Below, in pieces: positions 44,326 through 58,421 of a stretch of DNA of 63,805 nucleotides (within the stretch, counting starts at the first letter, position 1; each line of letters starts with the position of its first letter). The position numbers and the translations under genes are program-made. The notes beneath the pieces were generated by a model. That model was not told where the DNA came from and ran no database searches. It saw only the letters and a list, made by a program, of their open reading frames with translations. This DNA is from an uncultured Pelagibacteraceae bacterium. Lineage in GTDB: Bacteria; Pseudomonadota; Alphaproteobacteria; Pelagibacterales; Pelagibacteraceae. The stretch covers positions 1-63,805 of the forward strand of contig CACLNT010000008.1 in the NCBI GenBank assembly GCA_902608385.1, given 5' to 3'.

Positions 44326-44363
44326 TTATTTTTATTAAGAAAATTAAATAAGGATGTAATAGG

Positions 44364-44759: not shown

Positions 44760-44768
44760 TTAATAAAT

Positions 44769-45710
44769 CTAAATTAAAAGATTAGTAAGTTTTTCGAATA
44801 CTTTTTGTGCAGTAAGTTTTGATAAATCTGTAACCTGAATTGCTTTAAAATTTTCTCTTTCAATACTAACTTTATAAGCTGTGGTATGAGATCCAAATAA
44901 AGTTAATCCTTTTGAATTTAAATGTGCAGCCATATGAGCTGGGCCTGTATCGTTAGCTATTACAAAAGAACTTTCTTTTATTAAAGAAGATAGTTGAGAA
45001 ATATCTAGCGCTTTTCCATTATCTAATATGCATAAGGCATTAATCTCTTTTGAATCTGCAATTTCATTTGGACCAGGAGCAACCACAACTTTATACTCGT
45101 TATTATAATGATTTTTTATTTTTTCAATTATTTCATTATAGTAAGGCCATTTTTTTTGAGTAAGATGAGGTGAGCAGAATGGGAATAAAACAATAGATTT
45201 TTCTAATTTATATTCTGATTTTATTTTAGAAATATCAGTGCAGCTCCATGAAAAATCAGGAAGCATTGTATGTTTGGTGTTTATTCCTGAAGTTTGCATT
45301 TGATGATTAAATCTCTCTAAAACAGATTTTTTATCAAATTCTTCTTTTGTTTTATCATTAGGCAATGTTGTTTCAGAAGATGACCAAACATTTAAGTTTG
45401 AATTTGGAAATAATATTCTTTTATAAAAATTAGTTCTAGAAGAGTTTTGTAGATCATAAACTTTAGAAATTTTTAGTTTTTTTATTTTTCTCATTAAAGA
45501 ATAAAGATAAATCAAATTAAATTTTGGCAATCGTTTATCTAAAATAACATCATGTATAAATGGATTCTTTTTAAAAAGGTCAAAGTAAGGGTTTGTAGTC
45601 AATAAATGGATTTGATCATTTTTGTGATGCTCAGATATATCTTGAATTGCCCCACTTGCTTGAGCTATATCTCCTAATGAGCCGTGTTTAATAATTAAAA
45701 TATTGGACAT
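44769..45710 (-). CDS. Glycosyltransferase family 9 (heptosyltransferase-like)
   Basis: 313 residues. The N-terminal LIIKHGSLGDIAQASGAI and C-terminal FVIANDTGPAHMAAHLNSKGLTLFG motifs define GT9, which adds heptose or related sugars from nucleotide-sugar donors to the LPS core. The DxGxxH-type segment NDTGPAH is intact. It faces a gene of the DUF6165 type, 32 bases away. Confidence 0.88.
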   Translation of the reverse strand: MSNILIIKHGSLGDIAQASGAIQDISEHHKNDQIHLLTTNPYFDLFKKNPFIHDVILDKRLPKFNLIYLYSLMRKIKKLKISKVYDLQNSSRTNFYKRILFPNSNLNVWSSSETTLPNDKTKEEFDKKSVLERFNHQMQTSGINTKHTMLPDFSWSCTDISKIKSEYKLEKSIVLFPFCSPHLTQKKWPYYNEIIEKIKNHYNNEYKVVVAPGPNEIADSKEINALCILDNGKALDISQLSSLIKESSFVIANDTGPAHMAAHLNSKGLTLFGSHTTAYKVSIERENFKAIQVTDLSKLTAQKVFEKLTNLLI

Positions 45711-45742
45711 ATTTTTAACAACTTAACATACTATTAAATTTT

Positions 45743-46132
45743 ATGAATAAAATTCTAGCAGAAGTATCAGTTGGTGAGCTTTTGGATAAAATTTCAATTT
45801 TAGAAATCAAACAAGATAAAATTAAAGACAATAAGAATCTTAGGTTTATTAATGATGAATACAACGTGTTAAAAGCAGAATTAAATAAAAATATAAAAAA
45901 TGATGATAAATTAAACAATCTTTTCAACTCATTAAAAGAAATCAACGCGAAGCTTTGGGTTATTGAAGATGATAAAAGAATGTGTGAAAAAAATAAAGAT
46001 TTTGGAGAAAAATTTATAAAACTTTCTAGAGATGTTCATTTCTTAAATGATGAAAGAGCCAAAATTAAATTAGAAATTAATAATCATACAGGTTCAAAAA
46101 TTAAAGAAATTAAAGAATATACAAATTATTAA
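45743..46132 (+). CDS. DUF6165-like protein
   Basis: 129 residues of mostly helical, Lys/Glu/Asp-rich sequence. The start ILAEVSVGELLDKISILEIK resembles the family annotated as DUF6165, often found near glycosyltransferases, which is the case here (GT9 is divergent). It has a DERAKIKLEIN block near the C-terminus. No catalytic residues are known. Its stop overlaps the convergent nitrilase stop by 4 bases. Confidence 0.65.
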   Translation: MNKILAEVSVGELLDKISILEIKQDKIKDNKNLRFINDEYNVLKAELNKNIKNDDKLNNLFNSLKEINAKLWVIEDDKRMCEKNKDFGEKFIKLSRDVHFLNDERAKIKLEINNHTGSKIKEIKEYTNY

Positions 46133-46914
46133 TTCAAGCTTGGAATAACTTCTCTAAGCTTCATTGATTCATTCGGATTAATATTTGCATACAAAACTCC
46201 AGTACCTGATTTTTTAATTTTTATAATTTTTCCATCTGGAGAAATTATTGTTGAATGACCAAAAGTTTCTCTTTTTTTTGTATTTTTTCCAGTTTGATTT
46301 GGTGCAAATATATAACAAAAATTTTCAATTGCTCTAGCCTTTAACAATTCTAACCAATGTTTTTTTCCAGTAACTTTTGTGAATGCTGATGGAACGCTTA
46401 TAAAATGTAAATTTTTTTTAGATAAACTTCTATATATTTCAGGAAATCTTAAATCAAAACAAATTGTAAGTCCTAGTCTTCCCCATGGAAGGTTGACTGT
46501 AACAAGTTTCTTGCCAGGCCTATATGTTTTGCTTTCTTGATGTTTCTCTTTATTTTGTAATTTAACATCAAACATTTTAATTTTATCATAATAGGCAACT
46601 ATATTACCTTTTGGACCTATCATTATAGATCTGTTTCGGTATTTATTTTTATCTTTAATTGGAAGAGATCCTATCAATATCCATTTTTTGTTTTTTTTTG
46701 AAATTTTTTTAATTTCTTTAATCAATGGATCTTTGTGCATAGAGTATGTGTTCTTAAATAATATTTTTTTATCACTGGTAATTATCGATGATGTTTCGGG
46801 CGTTATTATTAAGTCAGATTTGTTCTTAATCGCTTGATTTAAATATAAAATAATCTGTTTAAAATTTTTATTATAGTTTTCTCCACTTGATAACTGAATA
46901 CAAGCTACTTTCAT
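46129..46914 (-). CDS. Nitrilase-superfamily carbon-nitrogen hydrolase (Nit1-like)
   Basis: 261 residues. The catalytic triad is visible: Glu in LIITPETSS, Lys in YYDKIKMFDV and Cys in GLTICFDLRFPE. The KIKMFDV loop and VPSAFTKVTGKKHWLELLKARAIEN block are typical of the Nit1 branch, whose characterised members remove the amide from deaminated glutathione; other omega-amidases are alternatives. Its ATG overlaps the permease stop by one base, so it is the last gene of the ABC operon. A role in using an imported amide substrate is possible. Confidence 0.85.
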   Translation of the reverse strand: MKVACIQLSSGENYNKNFKQIILYLNQAIKNKSDLIITPETSSIITSDKKILFKNTYSMHKDPLIKEIKKISKKNKKWILIGSLPIKDKNKYRNRSIMIGPKGNIVAYYDKIKMFDVKLQNKEKHQESKTYRPGKKLVTVNLPWGRLGLTICFDLRFPEIYRSLSKKNLHFISVPSAFTKVTGKKHWLELLKARAIENFCYIFAPNQTGKNTKKRETFGHSTIISPDGKIIKIKKSGTGVLYANINPNESMKLREVIPSLN

Positions 46915-47588
46915 TATTGATATCCATACTTTTTTTCTAAAAATTTAATTACGTTGTGGATTATAAAAGTCATTAATAAATATATACTTCCTGCAACAAT
47001 AAAAACTTCTACTGGTCTAAAAGTGGTTGATATTATATGTTTCGCAACCCCTGTAAGGTCAAGCAAAGTAACAGTGCTGGCTAAAGAAGTTCCTTTTAAC
47101 ATTAATATCATTTCATTCCCATAAGCGGGTAATGATTGTCTTATAGCTATTGGTAACTTTATTTTGAAAAAAGTATTTATTTTATTTAGTCCTAAGCTTT
47201 CTGCTGCTTCAACAACGCCTTTATTGATTGTTTCAAATGCAGATCTAAATATTTCAGAAGAATAAGCTCCAGTATTAAGAGTGAATGCTAGAATTGCACA
47301 TGAGTAAGGTTCTTTTAAAAAAATCCAAAGAAAAGATTCTCTTATCCACTCCACCTGGCCAAGTCCAAAATATATTATAAAAATTTGAACTAATAGCGGA
47401 GTTCCTCTAAAGATATATGAATAATAGTACGATATAAAAAAAAGTATTTTAATTTTACTTGTTCTTAAAATGGCAAAAAAAACACCAACAAATACACCAA
47501 AGAATAATGATAATAAAGTTAGTTCAATAGTTAATTTTGTTGCTTTTAACAATCTTGGAAAATGTTCTGAGATGAATTCCAAATCCAT
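46914..47588 (-). CDS. Polar amino-acid ABC transporter permease (HisM type)
   Basis: 224 residues with about five membrane segments. The ABC-interaction loop reads AAESLGLNKINTFFKIKLP (EAA motif), and FRGTPLLVQIFIIYFG is the family N-terminal block. It pairs with the upstream permease. Its start is immediately after that gene's stop. Confidence 0.9.
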   Translation of the reverse strand: MDLEFISEHFPRLLKATKLTIELTLLSLFFGVFVGVFFAILRTSKIKILFFISYYYSYIFRGTPLLVQIFIIYFGLGQVEWIRESFLWIFLKEPYSCAILAFTLNTGAYSSEIFRSAFETINKGVVEAAESLGLNKINTFFKIKLPIAIRQSLPAYGNEMILMLKGTSLASTVTLLDLTGVAKHIISTTFRPVEVFIVAGSIYLLMTFIIHNVIKFLEKKYGYQ

Positions 47589-48281
47589 TTAATATCCCTT
47601 GCTATAATGTTGTTCTAGCTTGTTAAATAATTTCATACTTAAAAAAGTCAAAAATAAATACAAAACAGCTGCAAAAGAATAAAAGAATAGAGGGTCTCTT
47701 GTTGATCCAGCAGCAATATATGACATTCTCATAATTTCCACTAAACCGGTAACTGATATTAAAGATGTGTCTTTTAAAGTAATTTGCCAAACATTACTTA
47801 TATTTGGTAATGCCAATCTTAGCATTTGTGGAATAATTACTTTGTAATAGTAAATTTTTTTTTTAAAACCTAAAACTTCAGAGGCTTCGAATTGACCTTT
47901 GTTAATAGATTGAACTGCTCCTCTAAAAACTTCTGTTGAATATGCTCCAGATATGATGCCTATAGAAAATGCTCCAGTTAAAAACGCATTTATCTCAATA
48001 TATCCGTCATACCCAAAGATCTTTGCGACATACATAATTGCACCACTGCCTCCAAAAAAAAATAAATATATTACTAAAAGTTCAGGAACACCTCTAAAAA
48101 CAGTGGTGTAAAAACTTCCTATTAAATTTAATATTTTATTTTTTGATAGTTTAAAGGATGCAAAAATTGCAGCTAAAAAAAAACCAATAAAGATAGCTGC
48201 TGCAGCAACTGCTATTGTCATTAGAGTTGCAAAAAAAAGTTCGTCTCCCCAGCCAGTGTCTCCGTAAGCTAAAAGTCCCAT
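47589..48281 (-). CDS. Polar amino-acid ABC transporter permease (HisQ type)
   Basis: 230 residues, about five membrane segments. It has the EAA-type loop FEASEVLGFKKKIYYYKVIIP and VFRGVPELLVIYLFFFG. It forms the permease pair with the HisM-like gene. The start codon lies 3 bases beyond a strong hairpin (48285-48320), so in mRNA the hairpin covers the region where ribosomes would bind. No ATP-binding protein gene follows in the operon. Confidence 0.9.
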   Translation of the reverse strand: MGLLAYGDTGWGDELFFATLMTIAVAAAAIFIGFFLAAIFASFKLSKNKILNLIGSFYTTVFRGVPELLVIYLFFFGGSGAIMYVAKIFGYDGYIEINAFLTGAFSIGIISGAYSTEVFRGAVQSINKGQFEASEVLGFKKKIYYYKVIIPQMLRLALPNISNVWQITLKDTSLISVTGLVEIMRMSYIAAGSTRDPLFFYSFAAVLYLFLTFLSMKLFNKLEQHYSKGY

Positions 48282-48284
48282 ATA

Positions 48285-48320
48285 TTTTAAGGCGATAGAA
48301 TTTAAACTATCGCCTTAAAA
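48285..48320 (-). promoter_or_regulatory. 14-bp perfect hairpin between the binding-protein and permease genes
   Basis: The inverted repeat TTTTAAGGCGATAG / CTATCGCCTTAAAA (48285-48298 and 48307-48320) forms a 14-bp stem with an 8-base loop. It is the strongest such structure I see in the window. It sits 9 bases after the binding-protein stop and 3 bases before the permease ATG. It probably protects the upstream mRNA end or partly terminates transcription, and may occlude permease translation, giving excess binding protein over permease. Confidence 0.75.
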
Positions 48321-48329
48321 ATTAAATTA

Positions 48330-49157
48330 TTACATAGAAGCGTCAAAGCCAAACCATTTGATAGCTAGTTCGCTTATCTTGCCACTTTTTCTTGCTTGAT
48401 CAATAGCTTTGTTAAAAGCTTTAAGAAGATCAGTATCATCTTTTCTGATACCAACGCCTACACCATTACCAAATGCACCACCTGATAAAGTAGGACCAAC
48501 TAACACAACTGGTTTGCCAGATTTTTCAGCATAGTCAGTAAATGCAACTGCTGCTGCTAGAGCTGCATCGCATCTTCCTGCTGATAAATCTAAATTAACT
48601 TCATCTTGAGTTTTGTATGTTCTGACAGTTACACTTCCAACATCTCCAGACTCTAAGAAGTTTTGGTGAATAGTTGCCGTTTGAACACAAACAGTTTTAC
48701 CAGCTAAAGCAGCTGTTAATGTTTTAAGTGCACTCTTAACGTTAGATCCTCCTAATGATAAATTGATACCTGATGGAGTATCCATTCCTTCAAGGCTAGA
48801 ACCTTTCATAACTGCTAACTGCGCAACTTCATCTGCATAACCTTGTGAGAAATTAATAACTTTCATTCTTTCACCAGTGATAGACATTCCAGCCATTATA
48901 GCATCGTACTTTCTCATTATTAACCCGGGTATCATACCGTCCCAATCTTGTTCAACAATTGTGCAATCAGCTTGCATGTAAATGCATAACCAATTCGCAA
49001 GATCAACTTCAAAACCAATTAATTGACCAGCTTCATTTTTTGAATTCCAAGGGGGATAAGCACCTTCAGTTCCAATCTTTATTGAACCAGCATTAGAATT
49101 GCTGATTAAAAATAAAGAAGTAAGAACTGTTAAAATTATTTTTTTAAATATATTCAT
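48330..49157 (-). CDS. Basic-amino-acid-type ABC transporter substrate-binding protein
   Basis: 275 residues from the ATG at 49157, set by an ideal GGAGG upstream; an earlier TTG is in frame. A signal peptide (FKKIILTVLTSLFLISNSNA) is followed by GSIKIGTEGAYPPWN, GFEVDLANWLC and DAIMAGMSITGERM, all typical of the HisJ/ArgT (lysine-arginine-ornithine, octopine) cluster. Two cysteine pairs could form disulfides. It acts in the periplasm, feeding the two permeases. SAR11 cells make such binding proteins in large amounts. Confidence 0.9.
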   Translation of the reverse strand: MNIFKKIILTVLTSLFLISNSNAGSIKIGTEGAYPPWNSKNEAGQLIGFEVDLANWLCIYMQADCTIVEQDWDGMIPGLIMRKYDAIMAGMSITGERMKVINFSQGYADEVAQLAVMKGSSLEGMDTPSGINLSLGGSNVKSALKTLTAALAGKTVCVQTATIHQNFLESGDVGSVTVRTYKTQDEVNLDLSAGRCDAALAAAVAFTDYAEKSGKPVVLVGPTLSGGAFGNGVGVGIRKDDTDLLKAFNKAIDQARKSGKISELAIKWFGFDASM

Positions 49158-49222
49158 TGTTACCTCCAAAAATTACATATAGTAAATCACAATTTTATTA
49201 ATATAAAAAGAAGTTTTTAGTC

Positions 49223-50263
49223 TTAATGGTTTATAGATGAAGAAAAATTCCAAGAACAATCAAAACTTGGGATATAAACCCTATCTAAAGTTGCATTTCC
49301 AAAGTTTTTATTAAATACATTTAGCCAATTTTTCACCTGTCTAGGCTTTTTATCTTGACTACCTACTTGTGCGGTTATGACCCCTTTGGGTTTTAATATT
49401 CTAATCAATGAATCCATATTTTTTGAAGCAAGATCAATACAAAATTGATCATCATTTAAATCTACAAATATATGATCATAACGATCATCTTTGACTTTCT
49501 TTATACTTTCAAAGGCATCACCCCATACACATTTTACTGAATTTTTTTCTGTAGCTTTATTTCCAATTTTTCCTAAATGTTTCTTGCAAACTTCGACCAC
49601 TTCAGGATCCAGCTCATACCAATCTATAAAACTAAAATCTTTAGAGATACATTCTCTTGCAACACCGCCATCGCCGCCACCAATTATGGCGGCTTTTTCT
49701 TTATTTTTATTTAATTTTAGACCGGCTTTAACAAAAGTAGAACTATATAAATGTTCATCTGAAGCTGCTACCTGAATTTCATTGTCAATAAACAATGATT
49801 TACCAAATTGTTCTAAGTCTAATATTTCTATATGTTGACCAACTTTTGAAGTAAAATCCTCGAGTACATTGTTTACAACATATGATTTTTGTAAACCTGG
49901 TGAGCTATAAATGTCATGATAAAGAGAAACTGTATCTCTATTAAATTCCTTTTTAATAATTCTTGTATGTTTTATTTCTTTTTTAATTATTTCAAGTGCT
50001 ACTGATGGATTAACTTTTCCACATGTAAAAAAATCAAAACTTATTATACCTTTCTCAGGAAAGGTGTGAAAACTAATATGACTTTCTGCTAATAAAGCAA
50101 GAATTGTAAAACCTTGTGGTTCAAATTTATATTTCGAAATTTCAAGGATAGTTACTTTTGCAGCTTTTGAAATTTTGTATATAAGATTTTCAAAAAAAGA
50201 AGGATCGTATTCTTTTTTGGTTCCAATAATGTCTAAAGTTATATGCTCTCCTACTTTAGTCAT
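49223..50263 (-). CDS. Fused S-adenosylmethionine decarboxylase - spermidine synthase
   Basis: 346 residues with two domains. Residues 1 to about 115 are prokaryotic AdoMet decarboxylase: LAESHISFHTFPEKG contains the self-cleavage serine (ESH), which becomes the pyruvoyl group, and FDFFTCG holds the catalytic cysteine. Residues about 120-346 are an aminopropyltransferase (SpeE): AIIGGGDGGVARECI, YELDPEVVEVCKKHLG and FVDLNDDQF. The fusion would make decarboxylated AdoMet and use it to form spermidine from putrescine. Such fusions have been reported in bacteria. It is last in the mtnP-mtnA-...-aldolase run. Confidence 0.92.
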   Translation of the reverse strand: MTKVGEHITLDIIGTKKEYDPSFFENLIYKISKAAKVTILEISKYKFEPQGFTILALLAESHISFHTFPEKGIISFDFFTCGKVNPSVALEIIKKEIKHTRIIKKEFNRDTVSLYHDIYSSPGLQKSYVVNNVLEDFTSKVGQHIEILDLEQFGKSLFIDNEIQVAASDEHLYSSTFVKAGLKLNKNKEKAAIIGGGDGGVARECISKDFSFIDWYELDPEVVEVCKKHLGKIGNKATEKNSVKCVWGDAFESIKKVKDDRYDHIFVDLNDDQFCIDLASKNMDSLIRILKPKGVITAQVGSQDKKPRQVKNWLNVFNKNFGNATLDRVYIPSFDCSWNFSSSINH

Positions 50264-50270
50264 AAAAAAA

Positions 50271-50930
50271 TTATCCTTTTTTATAATTTTTTATCTTCTC
50301 CAAGATTTTTTGCATTTCAGCAAATGAAAGAATCTTAGGTTGTCCTAATTTTAAAGCAATTATGTATTGATGACAAATATTTTCTACCTCTTCAGCTAGT
50401 TCAAACGCTTGCTTTAAGTTTACTCCAAATGCAACCTGTCCGTGGTTTGACATTAGACAAGCCTTTCTTTTTTCAAGAGCATTTAAAATATTTTTAGATA
50501 ATTCTTTTGTTCCAAAAGTTCCATATTCTGAGCATTTTATGTCGTCTCCACCTGCTAGAGCTATCATGTAATGAAATGCTGGAATTGCTTTTCCATGAGT
50601 TGATACAGCTGTAGCGTGAGGTGAATGAGCATGAACAATAGCTTTTGCTTCTTTTTTTTTTAAGTAAATATCCTGATGAAAACGCCACTCAGATGAAGGA
50701 TTAAGACTAGAATTAAACATTTTTAACAAATCGTACTCTTTGTTTAATTCAAGAAAAACTATATCTTCAGCTTTAAGTGTCTCGTATTTTTTGCCCGAAG
50801 GTGTTATCAAAAAACCTTCTATTCCATTCTTTGTTGTCCTAACTGACACATTTCCTGATCTTAATGGAGATAAATTTGTACTATTCAGTTTTTGAGTAAA
50901 TTTAATTACTTCTTCTTTTAAATCGTTCAT
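50271..50930 (-). CDS. Class II aldolase/adducin family protein (MTRu-1P aldolase or dehydratase)
   Basis: 219 residues. Zinc ligands are in IVHAHSPHATAV (His-x-His) and MSNHGQVAFG (His); the phosphate loop is LSPLRSGNVSVR. Family members include fuculose-1-phosphate aldolase, methylthioribulose-1-phosphate dehydratase (MtnB) and the methylthioribulose-1-phosphate aldolase (Ald2) of the DHAP shunt. mtnA and mtnP are neighbours, while mtnC, mtnD and the remaining steps of the methionine salvage cycle are not, which favours the aldolase reading: MTRu-1P to DHAP plus methylthioacetaldehyde. The exact activity is inference. Confidence 0.82.
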   Translation of the reverse strand: MNDLKEEVIKFTQKLNSTNLSPLRSGNVSVRTTKNGIEGFLITPSGKKYETLKAEDIVFLELNKEYDLLKMFNSSLNPSSEWRFHQDIYLKKKEAKAIVHAHSPHATAVSTHGKAIPAFHYMIALAGGDDIKCSEYGTFGTKELSKNILNALEKRKACLMSNHGQVAFGVNLKQAFELAEEVENICHQYIIALKLGQPKILSFAEMQKILEKIKNYKKG

Positions 50931-50942
50931 TTAAATACTTTT

Positions 50943-51134
50943 TTATTTGCTTTTTAGTTTTTTAATTTCTTCTTCACAAAATTTTCTAGATTTATCAGCA
51001 TCAAATGATTTATTTGTTTGTTTTTGAGCAACCATACAAGCGCCTACTGTTCTATTTAAGTTATGATCGCTATATTTCAAAATAACAAACATTGCGATTA
51101 CTACAAATGCAACAAATAATAATTTTTTTTTCAT
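50943..51134 (-). CDS. Small single-helix membrane protein in the mtn operon
   Basis: 63 residues, starting MKKKLLFVAFVVIAMFVIL, a signal anchor or signal peptide, then a charged periplasmic tail with two cysteines (GACMVA and KFCEEE) about 34-56. Its ATG overlaps the mtnA stop (ATGA), and the class II aldolase gene follows after 12 bases, so it is well embedded in the operon. I do not recognise the family. The two cysteines in a short secreted helical tail hint at a disulfide. Confidence 0.75.
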   Translation of the reverse strand: MKKKLLFVAFVVIAMFVILKYSDHNLNRTVGACMVAQKQTNKSFDADKSRKFCEEEIKKLKSK

Positions 51135-52207
51135 TTAAACAATGCTTTTAATCCTTCAGTAGATGCTTCGCAAACACCTTTTTCAGTAATTAATCCAGTA
51201 ACATATTTTGCTGGAGTTATATCAAAAGCCAAATTCATTGACTTGCTTTTCTTTGGGTAAATTAATACTTTTTGAACATTGTTATTTTCATCTACACCTT
51301 CTACATAAGATAGTTCATCTGAATTTCTCTCTTCAATTGGAATATCTTTAAAATCTTTTGTCTCCCAATCAATTGTTGAACTTGGTAATGCCACGTAAAA
51401 AGGTACATTATTATCATGTGCGGCTAATGCTTTTAAATAAGTTCCAATTTTATTTGCAACATCCCCGGTTGAAAGAGTTCTGTCAGTCCCAACAATACAC
51501 ATATCAACCTCGCCTCTTTGCATTAAAATTCCACCTGTGTTATCTGCAATAATTGTGTTTGAAACTCCTTCTTCATTTAATTCATAAGAAGTTAAATTAG
51601 CTCCTTGGTTTCTAGGTCTTGTTTCATCTACCCAAACATGAACTTTAATTCCTTTTTTGTGTGCATGATAAATTGGAGAAGTTGCAGTACCCCAATTAAT
51701 TGTTGCAAGCCAACCTGCATTACAATGGGTTAGAATGTTTACTGTATTTTTTTTTTTATTATAAATTTCTTCAATTATTTTTAGCCCATTAATTCCTATA
51801 CTTTCACAAAATTTAACATCTTCTTCACATATTTCTTTTGCCTCATTTAAGGCCATGTTTAAAATTTCATTACTATTTATTCCTGATAATTTTTTCATCA
51901 TTCTATCTACAGCCCATTTGAGATTTATTGCAGTAGGTCTTGAATTAATTAATTCTTCACTAGATTTTTTTAAAAATGACTGATCATTATTTTCTAAGAT
52001 TGATAAAACTATACCATATGCAGCTGTAGCTCCTATAAGAGGTGCACCTCTAACCTCCATGGTTTTAATTGCATTAACTGCATCATTAACTTTCTTAAGA
52101 TCTTTAATGATAAATTTGTGAGGTAGTTTTGTTTGATCTATTATTTTTACAATTTTATTTTTTTCATCAAACCAAATTGTCCGATATTCTTTTCCTTCTA
52201 TTTTCAT
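51131..52207 (-). CDS. mtnA: S-methyl-5-thioribose-1-phosphate isomerase
   Basis: 358 residues, full length, eIF2B-like fold. Catalytic segments are ILTHCNAGWLATI (Cys) and CIVGTDRTLSTGDVANKIGTY (Asp), with VWVDETRPRNQG earlier and the C-terminal VYLP-equivalent SSTIDWETKD block. It isomerises methylthioribose 1-phosphate to methylthioribulose 1-phosphate. The start overlaps the mtnP stop by one base. Confidence 0.95.
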   Translation of the reverse strand: MKIEGKEYRTIWFDEKNKIVKIIDQTKLPHKFIIKDLKKVNDAVNAIKTMEVRGAPLIGATAAYGIVLSILENNDQSFLKKSSEELINSRPTAINLKWAVDRMMKKLSGINSNEILNMALNEAKEICEEDVKFCESIGINGLKIIEEIYNKKKNTVNILTHCNAGWLATINWGTATSPIYHAHKKGIKVHVWVDETRPRNQGANLTSYELNEEGVSNTIIADNTGGILMQRGEVDMCIVGTDRTLSTGDVANKIGTYLKALAAHDNNVPFYVALPSSTIDWETKDFKDIPIEERNSDELSYVEGVDENNNVQKVLIYPKKSKSMNLAFDITPAKYVTGLITEKGVCEASTEGLKALFK

Positions 52208-53079
52208 TATTTATTAAGAGCTCTGCCAGCTATTGTTTTTAATTTATCTTTTGTTTTTTGAGTTCTTTTTTTAGGATCAGTAATGATTGCCACATCTAAA
52301 CAATTGTTTGCTGGATCTTTTGGATCAATATGTTTTTCAAAATTATCTATAAGGTTTTTAATCATGTTTTTAGCTTTTGTAGCATTACCTAATAAAACTT
52401 TAATTACAGATTGCACATCAACATTTGCATGATCTGGGTGCCAGCAATCATAATCCGTAACCATTGAAACAGATGCATATCTAATTTCTGCTTCTCTGGA
52501 TAATTTAGCTTCAGGCATATTGGTCATGCCAATAATATCTGCCTTCCATGATCTATATAAATTTGACTCCGCTAATGTAGAAAACTGAGGTCCTTCCATA
52601 ACAACATAAGTTCCTCCTCTTTGATAAGGTATATTTTGTTTTTTTATTGCTTCTTCACATGCGTTCATTAGACCATTTGATGTTGGATGGGCCATTGATA
52701 CATGAACAACAATTTCATCATCAAAAAAAGTTTTATTTCTAGCAAAAGTTCGATCAATAAATTGATCAACAATAACAAATTTTCCTGGGTTTAATTCTTC
52801 CTTTAAAGATCCTACTGCTGAAATTGATACTATATCTGTTACTCCTAATTGTTTTAATGAATCAATATTTGCCCTAAAGTTTATTTTTGAAGGTGAAATA
52901 AAATGACCCCTTCCATGTCTTGGTAGAAAAAAAACTTCTTTTTCATTAAATTTAGTCTTTAAAATTTGATCAGAAGGTTTACCCCAGGGTGTATTTAAAT
53001 CTAAAAACTCTCTATCTTTAAGTTCTTCAATGTCATATAGGCCACTTCCACCAATTATTGCTAATTTATTATTTGCCAT
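52207..53079 (-). CDS. mtnP: S-methyl-5'-thioadenosine phosphorylase
   Basis: 290 residues. Family motifs are LAIIGGSGLYDIE, FLPRHGRGHFISPSKINFRAN, ISAVGSLKEELNPGKFVIVDQ and YVVMEGPQFSTLAES, plus IGMTNMPEAKLSRE. It cleaves methylthioadenosine, the by-product of aminopropyl transfer, to adenine and methylthioribose 1-phosphate. Adenine can be salvaged by Apt, encoded divergently 43 bases away. Confidence 0.95.
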   Translation of the reverse strand: MANNKLAIIGGSGLYDIEELKDREFLDLNTPWGKPSDQILKTKFNEKEVFFLPRHGRGHFISPSKINFRANIDSLKQLGVTDIVSISAVGSLKEELNPGKFVIVDQFIDRTFARNKTFFDDEIVVHVSMAHPTSNGLMNACEEAIKKQNIPYQRGGTYVVMEGPQFSTLAESNLYRSWKADIIGMTNMPEAKLSREAEIRYASVSMVTDYDCWHPDHANVDVQSVIKVLLGNATKAKNMIKNLIDNFEKHIDPKDPANNCLDVAIITDPKKRTQKTKDKLKTIAGRALNK

Positions 53080-53122
53080 AATTAAAAAATAATTTATTTA
53101 TCAATATATAACTTAAAGAATT

Positions 53123-53650
53123 ATGGATTTAAAAGAATATATTCGATCAATTCCAGATTATCCCAAAAAAGGGATTCTATTTAGAGACATAACAACATTA
53201 ATAAAAAATGAAAAAGCTTTTACTTATTGCATTGATCAAATAGTTGAAAAATCTAAACAATTTAATTTTAACAAAATAGCTGCTGTTGAATCTAGAGGTT
53301 TTGTTTTTGCTTCAGCAGTTTCTTATATTCTTAACAAACCTTTTATTTTACTTAGAAAAAAAAATAAGCTACCAGCTGAAACTCATTCTGTTGATTTTGA
53401 ATTGGAGTATGGAACGGCAACTATTGAGATGCACAAAGATTCAATAAATAGGAATGACTCTGTTCTTGTAATAGATGATCTTATCGCAACTGGAGGAACG
53501 GCAGAAGCTGCTGCAAAATTAATAAAGATCTCAGAAGGAAAAGTAACTGGATTTATATTTGTAATAAATCTTTTTGATCTAGGTGGTTGTGATAAGCTGA
53601 AAAAACAAGACTACAAAGTTCAAAATCTAATTGATTTCCCTGGTCATTAA
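53123..53650 (+). CDS. apt: Adenine phosphoribosyltransferase
   Basis: 175 residues, full length. The PRPP-binding loop is VLVIDDLIATGGTAEA, and the flexible loop is LLRKKNKLPAETHS. N-terminal IRSIPDYPKKGILFRDITTL is the family signature. It turns adenine and PRPP into AMP. It is divergent from mtnP, matching supply of adenine from MTA cleavage. Its stop overlaps the convergent glycosyltransferase stop by 4 bases. Confidence 0.95.
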   Translation: MDLKEYIRSIPDYPKKGILFRDITTLIKNEKAFTYCIDQIVEKSKQFNFNKIAAVESRGFVFASAVSYILNKPFILLRKKNKLPAETHSVDFELEYGTATIEMHKDSINRNDSVLVIDDLIATGGTAEAAAKLIKISEGKVTGFIFVINLFDLGGCDKLKKQDYKVQNLIDFPGH

Positions 53651-54498
53651 TCATTTATTCTAAACCAAGATTTCTTACCAATGATAGAATTATACAAGCC
53701 GCAAAGACGCATTAAATAAATTTTTTTTTTGTGTGAGTTAAATAAAATTAAATAAAATACATATTTAAATATAGCAGATGCCAAATTTGAAATAATTTTA
53801 AGAAAAGCACTAAAATAACCATAATGTTTTTTGTTAAAATAAAATTTTGACCACATCCAATGCCAATTTCTTAAATACTCTAAATTTTTTGAAGTTATTG
53901 ATGCTGCGCCCAAATGAGTAATAAATGAATTTTTAATAACAAAAATATTTTGATCTCTTTTTTTTGCTCTTAAGCATAAATCGGTATTTTCTAAATATAA
54001 AAAAAAATTTTCATCAAAAAAAACATCATCCATAAATTTTTCTTTATTTATGAGCATAGAAAATCCATCTACATAATCAACACTTATAATATTTTCATTT
54101 ATATTTTTATTATCATTTGATATTTTGTAATTAGGATAATCTTGATCACTGTTTGTTGGTGAAATTATCGCAAAGTCATTGATAGATTCAGAAGCTTCAA
54201 AAATTTTTTTCAAAGTATCATTGTTAAATTTAGCATCAGGATTAATAATAAAAGCATATTTTGTTTTACTTTTTTTAATACCAATATTGTTTGATGCTCC
54301 CATACCTAAATTTTCATTAATTATTACCTCAATATTGTCATATTTACTCTCTAGTTCTTTCTTCAATTTAATGTTTTTAGAATTTTCGATAACTATTTTA
54401 TTCGAATCTCTTGGAAGTGAATTAATGCATTCATGAATAATTTTTTCACTTTTAAATGTGACAATAACATAAGTGATATTGTTGAGGTTTAAATTCAT
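53647..54498 (-). CDS. Glycosyltransferase family 2 protein (rhamnosyltransferase-like)
   Basis: 283 residues, GT-A fold. It begins ITYVIVTFKSEKIIHEC, has the metal site FIINPDAKF (variant DxD, NPDAxF typical of rhamnosyltransferases) and the acceptor region FFLYLENTDLCLRAKKR. A hydrophobic C-terminal segment (about 235-262) may anchor it. It lies next to the dTDP-rhamnose genes, which could make its donor. Confidence 0.88.
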   Translation of the reverse strand: MNLNLNNITYVIVTFKSEKIIHECINSLPRDSNKIVIENSKNIKLKKELESKYDNIEVIINENLGMGASNNIGIKKSKTKYAFIINPDAKFNNDTLKKIFEASESINDFAIISPTNSDQDYPNYKISNDNKNINENIISVDYVDGFSMLINKEKFMDDVFFDENFFLYLENTDLCLRAKKRDQNIFVIKNSFITHLGAASITSKNLEYLRNWHWMWSKFYFNKKHYGYFSAFLKIISNLASAIFKYVFYLILFNSHKKKIYLMRLCGLYNSIIGKKSWFRIND

Positions 54499-54545
54499 TG
54501 AGATAAACGACTATACTTAAAGAAAGTATTATTGTAAAAAAAATA

Positions 54546-55568
54546 ATGCATAAAGTTTTAGTAACAGGTGGATTAGGTTTTATTGGAAGTAATTTAATCC
54601 ACATGCTCTTAAATAGAAAATTCAAAGTTATTAATATAGATAAAGTAACTTACTCATCAAATTTTTATAATTTAAAAGGTATACCAAAAAATAAAAATTA
54701 TAAATTTATTAAGTGTGACATTAATAATAAAAAAAAAATTTACGATATATTAAAAAAGTATAGACCAAATTGTATCTTTAATCTTGCTGCTGAAACTCAT
54801 GTTGATAGATCAATAGATTCTCCAAAAAATTTTATAGATTCAAATATAGTGGGTGTTTTTAATTTACTTGAATCTTTCAAAAAATATTCAAAGACAAATA
54901 AAAAAACAAAGTTAATTCATGTATCTACAGACGAAGTTTTTGGAGATATAAAAAAAGGAAGATCAAAAGAGCATGATGGATATAAACCTAGCTCTCCATA
55001 CTCAGCATCTAAAGCTGCATCTGATCATCTTGTGTTTTCTTATATAAGAACTTTTAAAATAAATGCTATTGTTACTAATTGCTCAAATAATTATGGACCT
55101 AGACAACATCCTGAAAAATTAATACCAAAACTTATTTACAATATTATTAAGAACAAAAACTTACCAATATATGGAAAAGGTAAAAATTTAAGAGAATGGA
55201 TTTTTGTGGAAGATCATTGTGATGCACTAATAAAAATATATCAAAAAGGTAAAGTTGGAGAGTTTTATAATATAGGCTCAAACTTTAATATCAACAATTT
55301 GGCAGTTGTTAAAAAACTTTTATCCACTAGTAAAAAAAAAATCAAAGTAGGTAAAAATGTAAAAATCAAATTTATTAAAGATAGACCAGGTCATGATATG
55401 AGATATGCAATTAATAGCAACAAATTAAAAAGAAAAATTAACTGGATACCAAAAACCAACTTTTCAAATGGTTTGAAAAAAACATTTTTATGGTATTTAA
55501 AAAATCAAAAGTACTATTCAAAAATAAATAAAAAAGATATCACTAAGAGAATTGGAATGAATAAATGA
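54546..55568 (+). CDS. rfbB: dTDP-glucose 4,6-dehydratase
   Basis: 340 residues, extended SDR. The Rossmann fingerprint is VLVTGGLGFIGSNLI, followed by NLAAETHVDRSIDSP, STDEVFGDI and the catalytic Tyr-Lys YSASKAASDH, with NCSNNYGPRQ and RPGHDMRYAI in the sugar domain. It converts dTDP-glucose to the 4-keto-6-deoxy intermediate. Its 3' end overlaps rfbA by 4 bases, in an rfbB-rfbA-rfbC-rfbD-like order. Confidence 0.94.
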   Translation: MHKVLVTGGLGFIGSNLIHMLLNRKFKVINIDKVTYSSNFYNLKGIPKNKNYKFIKCDINNKKKIYDILKKYRPNCIFNLAAETHVDRSIDSPKNFIDSNIVGVFNLLESFKKYSKTNKKTKLIHVSTDEVFGDIKKGRSKEHDGYKPSSPYSASKAASDHLVFSYIRTFKINAIVTNCSNNYGPRQHPEKLIPKLIYNIIKNKNLPIYGKGKNLREWIFVEDHCDALIKIYQKGKVGEFYNIGSNFNINNLAVVKKLLSTSKKKIKVGKNVKIKFIKDRPGHDMRYAINSNKLKRKINWIPKTNFSNGLKKTFLWYLKNQKYYSKINKKDITKRIGMNK

Positions 55569-56434
55569 TTAAAAAAGGAATTATATTATCGGGCGGAAAA
55601 GGAACAAGAATGAGCCCTTTAACAAAAGCTGTAAACAAACAATTACTTCCTATCTATGACAAGCCACTAATTTTTTATTCACTTTCAGTATTAATGTTAG
55701 CAAAAATTAAAGATATTTTAATTATAGTTAACAAAGGTGAACTTAAACAGTATAAAAAAATATTACCAAATGGAAAAAATTTAGGAATTAAAATTAAGTA
55801 TATAGAACAAAATTCACCTAAAGGTTTACCAGATGCATTTATATTAGGAGAAAAATTTATAGGTAAAGACAACGTATCATTAATTCTTGGAGATAATTTC
55901 TTTTACGGCAAATACTTAACAAAAAAACTATTAGATTGTATAAAATTAAATAAAGGAGCAAAAGTATTCCTTCACAAAGTATCAAATCCAGAAAGATACG
56001 GAGTAGCAAAAATTAAGAAAAATAAAATTACATCTATTAAAGAAAAGCCAAAAAAATTTGTATCTAATTTAGCCATAACTGGGTTGTATTTTTTCGACAA
56101 TAAAGTGATTAAATATTCAAAGAAATTAAAACCCTCTAAAAGAAAAGAATTAGAAATCACTGATCTCTTAATTAAATATCAAAAAAAAAATCAACTTTAT
56201 GCAGATTATATTGGCAAAGATGGCACATGGTTAGATACTGGATCTATTAAAGATTTTTATAAAACAAACAATTTCGTTTCAACTATTGAAAGCAAAAAAA
56301 ACTTTAAAATAGCATGCATTGAAGAAATCGCATTACTGAACAAATGGATAAATAGAAAAAATATTTTAAATTCAATAAAATTTTATGGAAACTGTGAATA
56401 TTCATCCTATTTAAAGAAATTAATTTATAAATGA
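55565..56434 (+). CDS. rfbA: Glucose-1-phosphate thymidylyltransferase
   Basis: 289 residues. The nucleotide signature is LSGGKGTRMSPLTKAVNKQL, with LGDNFFYGKYL, SNPERYGVAKI, KEKPKKFVSNLAITGLYFFD and WLDTGSIKDF. The extra C-terminal segment of about 50 residues seen in RmlA is present. It activates glucose 1-phosphate to dTDP-glucose. Confidence 0.94.
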   Translation: MIKKGIILSGGKGTRMSPLTKAVNKQLLPIYDKPLIFYSLSVLMLAKIKDILIIVNKGELKQYKKILPNGKNLGIKIKYIEQNSPKGLPDAFILGEKFIGKDNVSLILGDNFFYGKYLTKKLLDCIKLNKGAKVFLHKVSNPERYGVAKIKKNKITSIKEKPKKFVSNLAITGLYFFDNKVIKYSKKLKPSKRKELEITDLLIKYQKKNQLYADYIGKDGTWLDTGSIKDFYKTNNFVSTIESKKNFKIACIEEIALLNKWINRKNILNSIKFYGNCEYSSYLKKLIYK

Positions 56435-56958
56435 TAACTAAAACCAAATTTAAAGGATTGTTAGTAATTCAAAATAAATCTCATAAAGATAAAAGAGGCT
56501 ATTTTAAAGAGTTAATTAATGAAAAAAAATTAAATAAAAGATTTCCATTTACGGTAATTTCTTTTTCAAAAAAAAATGTTATTAGAGGACTTCATATTCA
56601 AACAAAAAATCCACAAGGAAAATATCTGTCTGTGCTAAAAGGCAAAATATTTGATGTTGCGCTAGATCTCAGAAAAAATTCTGAAACTTTTGGAAAACAT
56701 TTTACAACAATAATCAGTGAAAATAACTCAAAATCAATTTTTATACCAAAAGGTTTTGCACATGGTTTTTGTACTTTGGAAAAAGAAAATTATATAATGT
56801 ACTCCAACACAAATTACAGACACAAAAGAAGTGAACTTGGCATTAAATATAACGATAAAGAATTAAAAATTAAATGGCCTATAAAAAAACCAATTATTTC
56901 AAAAAAAGATAGTAAAAATATGAGTTTTTCAAAATTTAAGGAAAAATTTTATAAATGA
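56431..56958 (+). CDS. rfbC: dTDP-4-dehydrorhamnose 3,5-epimerase
   Basis: 175 residues, cupin fold. The catalytic histidine is in VIRGLHIQTKNPQGKYL, and FIPKGFAHGFCTLE and RSELGIKYND follow. Length matches RmlC. It epimerises C3 and C5 of the 4-keto sugar. It overlaps rfbA by 4 bases and the next gene by 4 bases. Confidence 0.92.
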   Translation: MITKTKFKGLLVIQNKSHKDKRGYFKELINEKKLNKRFPFTVISFSKKNVIRGLHIQTKNPQGKYLSVLKGKIFDVALDLRKNSETFGKHFTTIISENNSKSIFIPKGFAHGFCTLEKENYIMYSNTNYRHKRSELGIKYNDKELKIKWPIKKPIISKKDSKNMSFSKFKEKFYK

Positions 56959-57659
56959 GAAAAAAAATATTAGTAACAGGCGGTGATGGAAGGTTTGCTT
57001 CTGTTTTAAAAAAAAAAAATAAAAAACTTAATCTTATTTTTAAATCAAAAAAACAATGCAATATATTAAATTTTAAATCTCTTGAAAGATGCATAAAAAA
57101 AACTAAACCAAATGTTGTTTTACATTGCGCTGGCTTGTCGAGGCCTATGTCTGTACATGATAAAGATATATCCAAAAGCATAGATATAAATATTATTGGT
57201 ACTGCAAATGTTACAAAAATATGTAAAAAATATAATTTAAAATTAATATATTTTTCATCTGGGTATGTTTATGAAGGAAAAAAAGGAAATTATTCTGAAA
57301 AAGATTCAGTTAAACCATTTAATAATTATGGATTATCAAAACTAGGAGGAGAATCTTCCGCTTTAATGTACAAAAATTCATTAGTATTAAGAATTACTAT
57401 GACTGAAAAACCTTTTTTATATAAGGAAGCTTTTTCAAACTTAAAAACAAATTTTATGTTCCATGAAGATCTTGTCAAAATTCTCCCCAAACTTATTGAC
57501 AAAAAAGGCATAATAAATGTAGGAGGACCCTCACAATCAGTTTATTTATTTGCAAAAAAAAATAATTCAAAAGTTAAAAAAATTAAAGCCAAAAAAAGCT
57601 TAGCTTTACCTTTAAATCAGACAATGAACTTGGCTAAAATGAAAAAAATTATAAGATAG
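56955..57659 (+). CDS. NAD-dependent sugar reductase, RmlD-like SDR
   Basis: 234 residues, against about 280-300 for RmlD. It begins ILVTGGDGRFASVL, where the second glycine pattern of the nucleotide loop is altered (GDGRFAS in place of GxxGxxG), and has VVLHCAGLSRP, YFSSGYVYEGKKG and the catalytic Tyr-Lys YGLSKLGGESS. Placement after rfbB-A-C suggests the final dTDP-rhamnose reductase or a related 6-deoxysugar reductase. The C-terminal substrate domain is short. It ends 3 bases from the tRNA gene. Confidence 0.75.
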   Translation: MRKKILVTGGDGRFASVLKKKNKKLNLIFKSKKQCNILNFKSLERCIKKTKPNVVLHCAGLSRPMSVHDKDISKSIDINIIGTANVTKICKKYNLKLIYFSSGYVYEGKKGNYSEKDSVKPFNNYGLSKLGGESSALMYKNSLVLRITMTEKPFLYKEAFSNLKTNFMFHEDLVKILPKLIDKKGIINVGGPSQSVYLFAKKNNSKVKKIKAKKSLALPLNQTMNLAKMKKIIR

Positions 57660-57662
57660 TTT

Positions 57663-57739
57663 TGGTAGCGGGAAGTGGGATCGAACCACTGACCTCGGGC
57701 TTATGAGTCCCGCGCTCTAACCAACTGAGCTACCCCGCC
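57663..57739 (-). tRNA. tRNA-Met (CAT anticodon)
   Basis: A 77-base cloverleaf on the minus strand: acceptor GGCGGGG paired with TCCCGCT (G-U at both ends), D-arm GCTC...GAGC, anticodon loop CTCATAA, variable AGGTC, T-arm AGTGG-TTCGATC-CCACT, and an encoded CCA. The anticodon is CAT. The elongator methionine identity is favoured over tRNA-Ile2 (CAT, later lysidine-modified) by overall similarity, but this cannot be settled by eye. The last anticodon-stem pair is an A-G mismatch. Confidence 0.93.
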
Positions 57740-57755
57740 GCTATAGTATTATTAG

Positions 57756-57783
57756 TTTATAATGCATTTTTTTATTGTTACAA
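57756..57783 (-). promoter_or_regulatory. Candidate promoter of the tRNA gene
   Basis: On the minus strand TTGTAA (57778-57783), a 16-base spacer and TATAAA (57756-57761) end 16 bases before the tRNA. The -35 element lies inside a 15-base near-palindrome TTATTGTTACAATAA (57772-57786). The fit to the consensus is reasonable but AT-rich DNA gives many chance matches. Confidence 0.4.
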
Positions 57784-57840
57784 TAAATTTTAACATTTTG
57801 CTTACTTAGACCAAATAATTTGTACAGTCAAAATAAAAAC

Positions 57841-57906
57841 TCAGACCAGTATCAAGATAAGTATTAATATAATCAAACCAATTATAGGAACAAAGAAATG
57901 TTGCAT
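57841..57906 (-). CDS. Candidate 21-residue hydrophobic microprotein
   Basis: A minus-strand frame between the MOSC gene and the tRNA promoter, beginning MQHFFVPIIGLIILILILIL, would form one membrane helix. It starts 53 bases past the MOSC stop. A purine-rich AAGAG lies directly before the ATG, too close for a good Shine-Dalgarno site. In AT-rich DNA such frames arise by chance, so this is tentative. The rest of the 57740-57959 gap holds only the tRNA promoter region. Confidence 0.25.
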   Translation of the reverse strand: MQHFFVPIIGLIILILILILV

Positions 57907-57959
57907 ACTCTTATTCTACCACGATCCCTAAAAGCTTTTTTATTTATTTTTCTTCTTGT

Positions 57960-58421
57960 TTATTCGTTTATGCTTTCTTCATACTCTTTAATATCATCTC
58001 CTGATTTAATATTGGACGAGGTTAAAATTTCACATCTTAATCCACCCATTTTTAAAAATTCTTTAATTATGTTTTTTTTGCCTAAATTTTCTTGAAGAGA
58101 TTTGCAAGGTCTACATAAATCAATTCCTTTTATTTCTGTTTTACCAATTATTAATTTTTTGCCTACTAAATCATTTAATTTAATTCCTTTAGTGACAATA
58201 TTTCTTCTAAAATTTAGATAAGGAATTTTTAAATTAAATTTATTATTGTAATAATCTATGTTTTCACTTTCTATTAATGTTAATTGATTACGATCTTCAT
58301 TTTTTTCATTAAAATATCTATCTCCAATAATTCCTTTACCAGCAGAAACGTTTATTTCCTTAACTTCTTGGATTTCTCCATTTTTACTTTTTGCAATACC
58401 AATTTTAATAACTTCTGACAT
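57960..58421 (-). CDS. MOSC-domain protein
   Basis: 153 residues. The MOSC pattern is clear: GIIGDRYFNEKNEDRNQLTLIE, FRRNIVTKGIKLNDLVGKKL, and the conserved cysteine segment KGIDLCRPCKSLQ. MOSC domains bind sulfur carried on a cysteine and often act near molybdenum cofactor enzymes; stand-alone proteins of this length include YiiM-type N-hydroxylated base reductases. The stop at 57960 precedes the microprotein candidate. Confidence 0.85.
   Translation of the reverse strand: MSEVIKIGIAKSKNGEIQEVKEINVSAGKGIIGDRYFNEKNEDRNQLTLIESENIDYYNNKFNLKIPYLNFRRNIVTKGIKLNDLVGKKLIIGKTEIKGIDLCRPCKSLQENLGKKNIIKEFLKMGGLRCEILTSSNIKSGDDIKEYEESINE

Follow-up and report, generated by a model that had tools for sequence, protein, structure and literature searches.

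A gene block in a SAR11-group bacterium very probably encodes a DHAP shunt coupled to the formation of spermidine, judging by the activities predicted for its enzymes. Comparison with related genomes makes it fairly likely that SAR11 chromosomes reserve a single place, flanked by apt and the speD-speE fusion gene, for the disposal of spermidine-derived methylthioadenosine (MTA), and that this place has repeatedly been filled by one of three interchangeable modules: mtnP and mtnA with either a plain aldolase gene or an aldolase-dehydrogenase fusion, or else a gene resembling a nucleosidase. As part of the same proposal, the fusion would represent a version of the DHAP shunt that has so far gone unrecognised, with a single protein that cleaves methylthioribulose-1-phosphate and reduces 2-methylthioacetaldehyde (or acetaldehyde); it would supply the alcohol dehydrogenase that the R. 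palustris study lists as 'putative' and would also operate in other Alphaproteobacteria. The DHAP-shunt route itself is already known, and the new result is the comparative pattern of three fillings.

The window, which is the whole analysed stretch of 63,805 nucleotides, comes from a SAR11-group genome that is 85% complete. An earlier note had placed mtnP, mtnA, a class II aldolase gene and a fused speD-speE on one strand, with apt divergent from mtnP, and the ORFs and family scores confirm this arrangement (Table 1). The three enzyme types of the MtnP variant of the DHAP shunt (MtnP, MtnA and a class II aldolase resembling FucA) are encoded together. The genes had also been called overlapping or adjacent, which holds for mtnP and mtnA but not for mtnA and the aldolase gene, as these are separated by an overlooked ORF of 63 amino acids, which shares 4 bases with the end of mtnA and stops 12 bp short of the aldolase gene. 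This ORF has no Pfam match and may lie outside the pathway; an 87% identical copy occupies the same place in locus L058, and weaker copies are found between the aldolase gene and mtnA in loci L059, L064 and L068. The speD-speE gene starts 7 bp past the aldolase gene; according to the available part of PMC8437039, the SpeE of SAR11 is encoded by a gene fusion. The ABC transporter is a conserved neighbour of speD-speE and not itself a component of the route; its binding-protein gene is present in 65 of the 80 fusion-type loci. An Rfam scan of positions 44000-58000 revealed no riboswitch over the block, as only a tRNA exceeded its gathering score.

Table 1. Features of the gene block and its neighbourhood (window coordinates)
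Feature	Position	Strand	Evidence and remarks
ABC transporter, best matches to basic amino acid transporters	46914-49169	-	scores below the cut-offs of specific transporter models
ABC transporter permease	46914-47588	-	
ABC transporter permease	47589-48281	-	
ABC transporter binding protein	48330-49169	-	
speD-speE fusion, S-adenosylmethionine decarboxylase-spermidine synthase, predicted MTA source	49223-50263	-	AdoMet_dc PF02675 92.5 bits; Spermine_synth PF01564 90.3 bits
FucA-like class II aldolase; predicted Ald2 role, cleaving methylthioribulose-1-phosphate and 5-deoxyribulose-1-phosphate	50271-50930	-	PF00596 168.3 bits (cut-off 22.2)
63-aa ORF, N-terminal hydrophobic stretch	50943-51134	-	between mtnA and class II aldolase
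mtnA, methylthioribose-1-phosphate isomerase	51131-52207	-	TIGR00512 411.0 bits (cut-off 279); 1-base overlap with mtnP
mtnP, S-methyl-5'-thioadenosine phosphorylase	52207-53079	-	PRK08931 438.8 bits (cut-off 437); TIGR01694 306.4 bits (cut-off 274.85)
apt, adenine phosphoribosyltransferase	53123-53650	+	TIGR01090 205.7 bits (cut-off 185.85); divergent, 43 bp from mtnP

In the proposed route, SpeD-SpeE would form spermidine and release MTA, which MtnP would split with phosphate into methylthioribose-1-phosphate and adenine, the latter being recycled by Apt. MtnA is expected to convert methylthioribose-1-phosphate to methylthioribulose-1-phosphate, and the aldolase is predicted from its sequence to cleave this into DHAP and 2-methylthioacetaldehyde, which an unlinked dehydrogenase encoded in the same genome would probably reduce to 2-methylthioethanol. 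The enzymes of the DHAP shunt also process 5'-deoxyadenosine, which the earlier note omitted; here it may be a second substrate, from which the same enzymes would yield DHAP and acetaldehyde. A point against the shunt is that SAR11 SpeE has been proposed to run backwards too (PMC8437039, available in part) and would in that direction use MTA up instead of producing it.

The fate of the methylthio group differs between organisms. In E. coli it ends chiefly as 2-methylthioethanol (PMC10986504, available sections), while aerobic R. palustris converts 2-methylthioethanol to methanethiol (PMC5893883, likewise in part), and therefore both sulfur loss and sulfur recovery exist. That the cell throws the methylthio group away, as stated earlier, is an assumption, since R. 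palustris recovers the sulfur and the SAR11 genome encodes an O-acetylhomoserine sulfhydrylase (581.7 bits, above the family cut-off), through which at least part of the sulfur could be regained via methanethiol.

Across 150 genomes, an aldolase of either type and mtnA are found together in 70, the aldolase alone in 4, mtnA alone in 3 and neither in 73 (Fisher p 1.5e-33, uncorrected for relatedness), hence the arrangement is not due to chance. Close relatives of the window aldolase are present in 53 genomes, and mtnA was detected in 49 of them. In the four without an mtnA match (G001, G005, G076 and G078), the aldolase gene sits no further than about 5 kb from the end of its contig; G001 additionally appears rearranged. 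Three genomes carry mtnA without either aldolase; the mtnA contig stops short of the aldolase place in G031 and G044, which is not evident in G073. These four and three genomes, together with the higher score of the window aldolase to FucA than to Ald2, are points against the DHAP-shunt reading.

Within the genus group, 73 genomes with speD were split according to what occupies the place. It is filled in 52 by an aldolase of the window type (mtnA detected in 48) and in 16 by a fusion that joins a distant class II aldolase with a short-chain dehydrogenase (mtnA in all 16); the remaining five, which lack mtnP and mtnA, carry an MTA/SAH-nucleosidase-like gene, sought in 161 loci. The five nucleosidase-type loci retain apt and have no aldolase either. 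The two aldolase types were found in the genus group only in genomes with speD (68/68), and on the unrooted SpeDE tree they swap at least 14 times, 8 changes being forced by supported branches. In addition, both aldolases lie side by side in one locus out of 80 (L160). Because of the three fillings, the recurrent switching and this double locus, the place between apt and speD-speE appears to serve MTA disposal.

The fusion belongs to the bifunctional aldolase/short-chain dehydrogenase family PRK08324.1-6 (NF006192), for which two proteins scored 905.3 and 796.2 bits against a cut-off of 639. For a RhaD-type rhamnulose-1-phosphate aldolase/dehydrogenase, the two proteins did not reach the TIGR02632 cut-off (441.5 and 458.0 versus 567.75 bits). 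The aldolase domain of the fusion has no detectable BLAST similarity to the window aldolase (E about 1), and in SAR11 the fusion gene lies on the strand opposite to mtnA. In other Alphaproteobacteria, mtnA is found within about 1.5 kb of the fusion gene in 16 of 30 loci (from 30 of the 49 fusion genomes at class level). The fusion may provide the aldehyde reduction step that the DHAP shunt still lacks, and a literature search found no paper on the aldolase-dehydrogenase fusion in connection with MTA.

The window aldolase itself scores higher with E. coli FucA (43% identity, 171 bits) than with E. coli Ald2 (38% identity, 144 bits). Its best PDB matches are FucA entries (6btd, 4.2e-38); 6btd/6btg, displayed as 'Fuculose phosphate aldolase', are entries for DrdA. 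Among the matches listed (25 of 30), it falls below every NCBIfam cut-off. The columns of the catalytic Glu and the metal-binding His residues of FucA are conserved, and the catalytic columns are identical in 38/38 SAR11 aldolase rows, while F206 of the aldehyde pocket is substituted in all 38. This replacement is not a mark of the DHAP shunt, since E. coli Ald2 retains F at this position. Clustering with fuculose-phosphate aldolases, which had been proposed as a refuting result, has no discriminating power, because Ald2 from the DHAP-shunt operon of E. coli ATCC 25922 shares 58% identity with E. coli FucA and is named 'L-fuculose-phosphate aldolase' in RefSeq.

The later enzymes of methionine salvage were sought by profile search in the 150 genomes, the source genome included, alongside 14 named control genomes. 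Neither MtnD (PF03079) nor MtnC (TIGR01691) exceeded its cut-off in any of the 150, while two and one of the controls passed, respectively. RuBisCO or a RuBisCO-like protein (PF00016) passed the cut-off in a single genome outside SAR11 and not in the source genome, and fucose isomerase (PF02952) gave no match whatever in the 150 genomes (3/14 controls positive). The source genome encodes only two class II aldolases, which score 61.4 (the window aldolase) and 36.3 bits against the MtnB model TIGR03328 (cut-off 137.05), so it lacks an MtnB-grade protein by this measure. The absence of mtnC and mtnD is argued from the relatives because the source genome is incomplete; with this support, what the earlier note had seen in the window extends beyond it, and the complete salvage set that could have refuted the note was not found in the source genome or its relatives. 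Together with the co-occurrence of aldolase and mtnA, these results support a truncated route with a DHAP-yielding aldolase. On the same grounds, universal methionine salvage and the MTA-isoprenoid shunt were rejected, as were MtnB identity and a FucA in a fucose pathway, since the aldolase also misses the TIGR01086 cut-off (170.7 versus 400.25 bits).

It is conceivable, although unlikely, that the block mainly clears 5'-deoxyadenosine from radical SAM enzymes, as DrdK/I/A do in B. thuringiensis, with MTA as a side substrate. Clusters of a kinase or phosphorylase, an isomerase and a FucA-like aldolase for 5-deoxyribose disposal have been described (PMC6079011, part available), and three genomes from another family of the order (G095, G133 and G141) carry mtnA and an aldolase-dehydrogenase gene without a SpeD match. 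However, the restriction of the genus-group aldolases to speD genomes, and the nucleosidase-like gene that takes the same place in five of them, argue for MTA; the two readings overlap, since the DHAP-shunt enzymes act on both substrates. We also regard as rather improbable that the block really serves to recycle adenine and phosphate, with an MTA phosphorylase acting on several nucleosides and mtnA and the aldolase merely clearing the sugar phosphate. Such a role would fit the position of mtnP beside apt, the nucleosidase-type loci that keep apt alone of these genes, and the broad role proposed for this phosphorylase in Prochlorococcus (PMC11698098, part available), but one or other aldolase type is present in 68 of the 73 genus-group genomes with speD, a gene cost in small genomes, which argues that the sugar moiety or its removal matters.

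An ordinary L-fuculose-1-phosphate aldolase, here by happenstance, would account for the identity to E. coli FucA and the best PDB matches, yet it is already disfavoured and very improbable in view of the missing fucose isomerase, the co-occurrence with mtnA, the swapping with a distant aldolase in this position and the loss of F206. It is just as hard to credit that the aldolase is an MtnB dehydratase and that an unrecognised enolase/phosphatase and dioxygenase finish ordinary methionine salvage: MtnB belongs to the same superfamily and its model matches weakly, but far under the cut-off, the FucA-type catalytic and metal-binding columns are kept, and MtnC and MtnD exceed their cut-offs in none of the 150 genomes.

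A DHAP shunt in SAR11 would be of wider significance, as the group is one of the most abundant among marine bacteria (PMC8437039, available part). The way SAR11 uses its sulfur also matters for methanethiol and dimethyl sulfide. In the portions of the literature searched, no description of how SAR11 handles polyamine-derived MTA was met. Three disposal gene sets in one place point to the role of the block and make it testable; depending on its module, a lineage would be expected to keep only the carbon, the carbon together with the sulfur, or neither of them. In addition, the three fillings provide functional evidence for an aldolase that sequence alone would assign to fucose metabolism, and indicate a candidate enzyme for the aldehyde reduction that the known DHAP shunt is missing.

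Among known systems, the DHAP shunt of Rhodospirillum rubrum and Rhodopseudomonas palustris (MtnP-MtnA-Ald2; the DHAP-ethylene and DHAP-methanethiol shunts) uses the same three enzyme types in the MtnP variant (PMC5893883, available part), whereas the predicted SAR11 shunt is linked to apt and a speD-speE fusion, in small genomes of marine bacteria, and either of two distant aldolases can occupy its aldolase place. The shunt of E. coli ATCC 25922 (Pfs, MtnK, MtnA, Ald2), which yields 2-methylthioethanol (PMC10986504, in part), has an MtnA 57% and an aldolase 38% identical to those of the window; however, a nucleosidase and a kinase replace MtnP, and its operon has a putative transporter gene and no spermidine gene in the stretch examined. 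The DrdK-DrdI-DrdA salvage of 5-deoxyribose in Bacillus thuringiensis resembles the block in its clustered FucA-like aldolase, and its three enzymes in tandem convert methylthioribose too (PMC6079011, excerpts), but it is of the kinase type and mainly disposes of 5'-deoxyadenosine. E. coli FucA shares its family and its catalytic and metal-binding columns with the window aldolase, but differs in the aldehyde pocket and in its fucose context. Finally, the PRK08324.1-6 fusion occupies the same chromosomal place with a class II aldolase domain, and differs by carrying its own dehydrogenase.

On the minus strand of the window, the genes for methylthioadenosine (MTA) salvage and polyamine synthesis are separated by overlaps of 1 and 4 bases and gaps of 12 and 7 bp, and this tight spacing suggests that those from mtnP to speD-speE form a single transcription unit. 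Re-reading of the ORFs confirmed the gene coordinates of an earlier note made from the sequence alone. Its adjacency of mtnA and the aldolase gene holds for the strand, but a 63-aa ORF lying between the two had been overlooked. Small ORFs resembling it occupy the same place in four loci of relatives (L058, L059, L064 and L068), lie between speD-speE and a nucleosidase-like gene in L204, and are found at other positions in other relatives.

Features of the window, with the salvage and polyamine genes in order of transcription
Feature	Position	Strand	Remark
mtnP	52207-53079	minus	first
mtnA	51131-52207	minus	second
63-aa ORF	50943-51134	minus	N-terminal hydrophobic stretch; between mtnA and aldolase
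class II aldolase	50271-50930	minus	fourth
speD-speE fusion	49223-50263	minus	last
apt	start 53123	plus	divergent, 43 bp from mtnP
tRNA gene	57666-57739	minus	62.6 bits

In the comparison set of 150 genomes (including the bacterium's own; 91 in the same genus group), mtnA is matched in 73 genomes (72 over cut-off) and mtnP in 72 (70 over cut-off), excluding a weak match in G145. With the window aldolase as query, 114 genomes gave matches at E of 0.001 or below, and 53 of these hold a close aldolase, defined as E below 1e-40; the remaining matches are distant class II aldolases with 21-32% identity. A gene of about 677 aa that joins a class II aldolase to a short-chain dehydrogenase (NF006192) is over cut-off in 21 of the 150 genomes and in none of 14 control genomes. 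One fusion protein scores 905.3 bits against NF006192, and the two domains score 77.7 and 119 bits, respectively, in the one member scanned with Pfam. Close aldolase and fusion never occur together in one genome (0/150), and among the 73 genomes with mtnA, 70 carry one or the other. BLAST shows no recognisable similarity between the window aldolase and the fusion's aldolase domain (E about 1), so that the window-type aldolase is replaced by a distant member of the class II aldolase superfamily.

The stretch between apt and speD-speE can also be filled in a third way. Five genus-group genomes with speD (G012, G019, G057, G062 and G074) lack a match for mtnP, mtnA and either aldolase type, and G012 is a single contig listed as 100% complete. 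All five carry there a gene of the phosphorylase/nucleosidase superfamily, 172-175 aa long (taken from the ORF in two genomes and from the match length in three); among 161 fetched loci the gene is confined to these genomes. The two proteins scanned score 57.3 and 50.6 bits against PF01048, and their top NCBIfam matches are nucleosidases, including MTA/SAH nucleosidases, all below cut-offs. Of the genus-group genomes, 73 thus have a speD match: 52 of these carry the aldolase (48 together with mtnA), 16 the fusion (all 16 together with mtnA) and 5 the nucleosidase-like gene; a speD match is missing in 18 of the 91, none more than 90% complete, and 3 of these have mtnA.

A set of 80 named fusion-type loci was kept from 567 confirmed candidates; 76 of the 80 are titled Pelagibacteraceae or Pelagibacter, and the bacterium is accordingly treated as SAR11-group. 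The 80 loci contain speD-speE in 74 cases, mtnA in 65, mtnP in 60 and apt in 58, which are counts of loci rather than genomes, as the fetched sets partly repeat the same genomes. The six loci without speD-speE are three whose contigs start at the fusion gene (L116, L152, L168) and three from outside SAR11 (L167, L173, L174). One locus (L160, Pelagibacteraceae AG-435-M03) carries speD-speE, window-type aldolase, fusion, mtnA, mtnP and apt consecutively. A tree built from 106 different SpeDE proteins (74 fusion, 31 aldolase, 1 both; identical rows removed, quick method) requires no fewer than 14 changes of aldolase type, 8 of them forced by well-supported branches. The aldolases of SAR11 group together in a single clade apart from three references (support 99, quick method). 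Furthermore, aldolase and fusion each co-vary with SpeDE (Mantel r 0.59 for 34 rows and 0.66 for 75 rows), and none of 2000 permutations reached the observed values. The likely history is that both types have long been present and that losses or recombination have recurred at the aldolase place.

Other rearrangements and insertions were seen in relatives. In L206 (genome G001), a rearranged or broken case, the transporter genes separate mtnP and apt from speD-speE and the aldolase gene; the aldolase gene is truncated by the end of the contig, and no mtnA was found. Read by eye, L040, L042, L060 and L093 hold sulfatase-like and TRAP-transporter-like genes between mtnA and the aldolase place, joined in the longer loci by a fumarylacetoacetate-hydrolase-like gene, while serA-, serC-, DUF1015- and tryptophan-synthase-beta-like genes lie between aldolase and mtnA in L056 (5184-10160) and also in L061. 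In 15 of 98 loci (not genomes), such as L048, L053, L067 and L095, the interval separating mtnA from mtnP encodes a protein of about 300 aa with a signal-like start.

In the proposed route, MtnP would split MTA into adenine and methylthioribose-1-phosphate, MtnA would isomerise the latter to methylthioribulose-1-phosphate, and the aldolase would cleave this to DHAP and 2-methylthioacetaldehyde. Eight columns of the aldolase (E73, H92, H94, H155, N29, S71, S72 and Y113 in the E. coli FucA reference), which include residues with catalytic and metal roles, are unchanged in 38 of 38 SAR11 rows. F206, which a docking study counts as a flexible residue of the E. coli FucA binding site (PMC11274987), is replaced in all 38 by A, V, T, I, S or M, a change that would widen the aldehyde side of the pocket. 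Loss of F206 does not mark the DHAP shunt in general, since F is kept in E. coli Ald2 and in the aldolase of G146.

The earlier note's lack of mtnC and mtnD is borne out: MtnD (PF03079) and MtnC (TIGR01691) are each over cut-off in 0 of 150 genomes, the own genome being 85.18% complete (1.18 Mb, 37 contigs; window G+C 28.4%). Matches below cut-off occur for MtnD in G147 only and for MtnC in 44 genomes, the own genome not among them. RuBisCO-like protein (PF00016) is over cut-off in 1 of 150, G144 of another family, and none of the 150 genomes gives any match to fucose isomerase (PF02952), which is matched in 3 of 14 controls. Two class II aldolases are encoded in the own genome, the window copy and a PRK07490 member on contig C16 (321.6 bits, cut-off 260), and neither reaches the MtnB cut-off.

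SAR11 requires reduced sulfur. The earlier note proposed that the methylthio group is discarded, but the genome is compatible with loss or recovery: it encodes an O-acetylhomoserine sulfhydrylase (TIGR01326, 581.7 bits, cut-off 495.1; over cut-off in 112 of 150 genomes), through which sulfur might be recovered if some enzyme frees methanethiol. A possible candidate for freeing it from 2-methylthioethanol is a PhyH-type dioxygenase. Such a gene lies between mtnA and mtnP in L040 (5804-6595; Pfam 77.4 bits), with tblastn matches in L042, L049, L093, L137 and L152; the mtnA-mtnP interval is 792-801 bp in 11 of 98 loci, in two sequence groups. Reverse running of SAR11 SpeE, consuming MTA, has also been proposed (PMC8437039, available text), and MTA removal by MtnP would pull against it.

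At the class level, the fusion is over cut-off in 49 of 289 genomes. Among the 30 best-scoring, several of which share genus or family and some of which have cut flanks, mtnA lies within about 1.5 kb in 16 loci, and 2 further loci have mtnP with or without apt. In the named set, mtnA also lies near the fusion in one MAG each of Gammaproteobacteria (36 bp), Thalassospiraceae (23 bp) and Rhodospirillaceae (888 bp). In G095, G133 and G141 (L055, L088), which belong to a different family in the order, mtnA and the fusion are present with no SpeD match, so that 5'-deoxyadenosine may also serve as a substrate.

Database names hide the DHAP shunt: in E. coli ATCC 25922, RefSeq gives the name L-fuculose-phosphate aldolase to the gene that follows mtnK and mtnA in the ald2 position (L084:11197-11838). 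The open-access literature searched yielded no paper on Pelagibacter with 5-deoxyadenosine and aldolase, none linking the aldolase-dehydrogenase fusion to methylthio compounds or mtnA, and, in the available parts of that on SAR11/Pelagibacter and methylthioadenosine, methionine salvage or methylthioribulose, no description of a DHAP-shunt route. As far as the available texts go, the SpeD-SpeE fusion of SAR11 is already known (PMC8437039), six phyla have three-gene clusters that combine a phosphorylase or kinase with an isomerase and a FucA-like aldolase (PMC6079011), and by one count about 6.5% of sequenced bacteria have homologues of MtnP, MtnA and Ald2 (PMC5893883). The predicted route via MtnP, MtnA and the aldolase is the DHAP shunt described there and in PMC10986504, in which, in the same texts, sulfur is lost in E. 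coli (PMC10986504) and recovered as methanethiol in aerobic R. palustris (PMC5893883). The window block alone is of a known type, and the novelty lies in the three ways of filling a single place and in the fused aldolase-dehydrogenase form.
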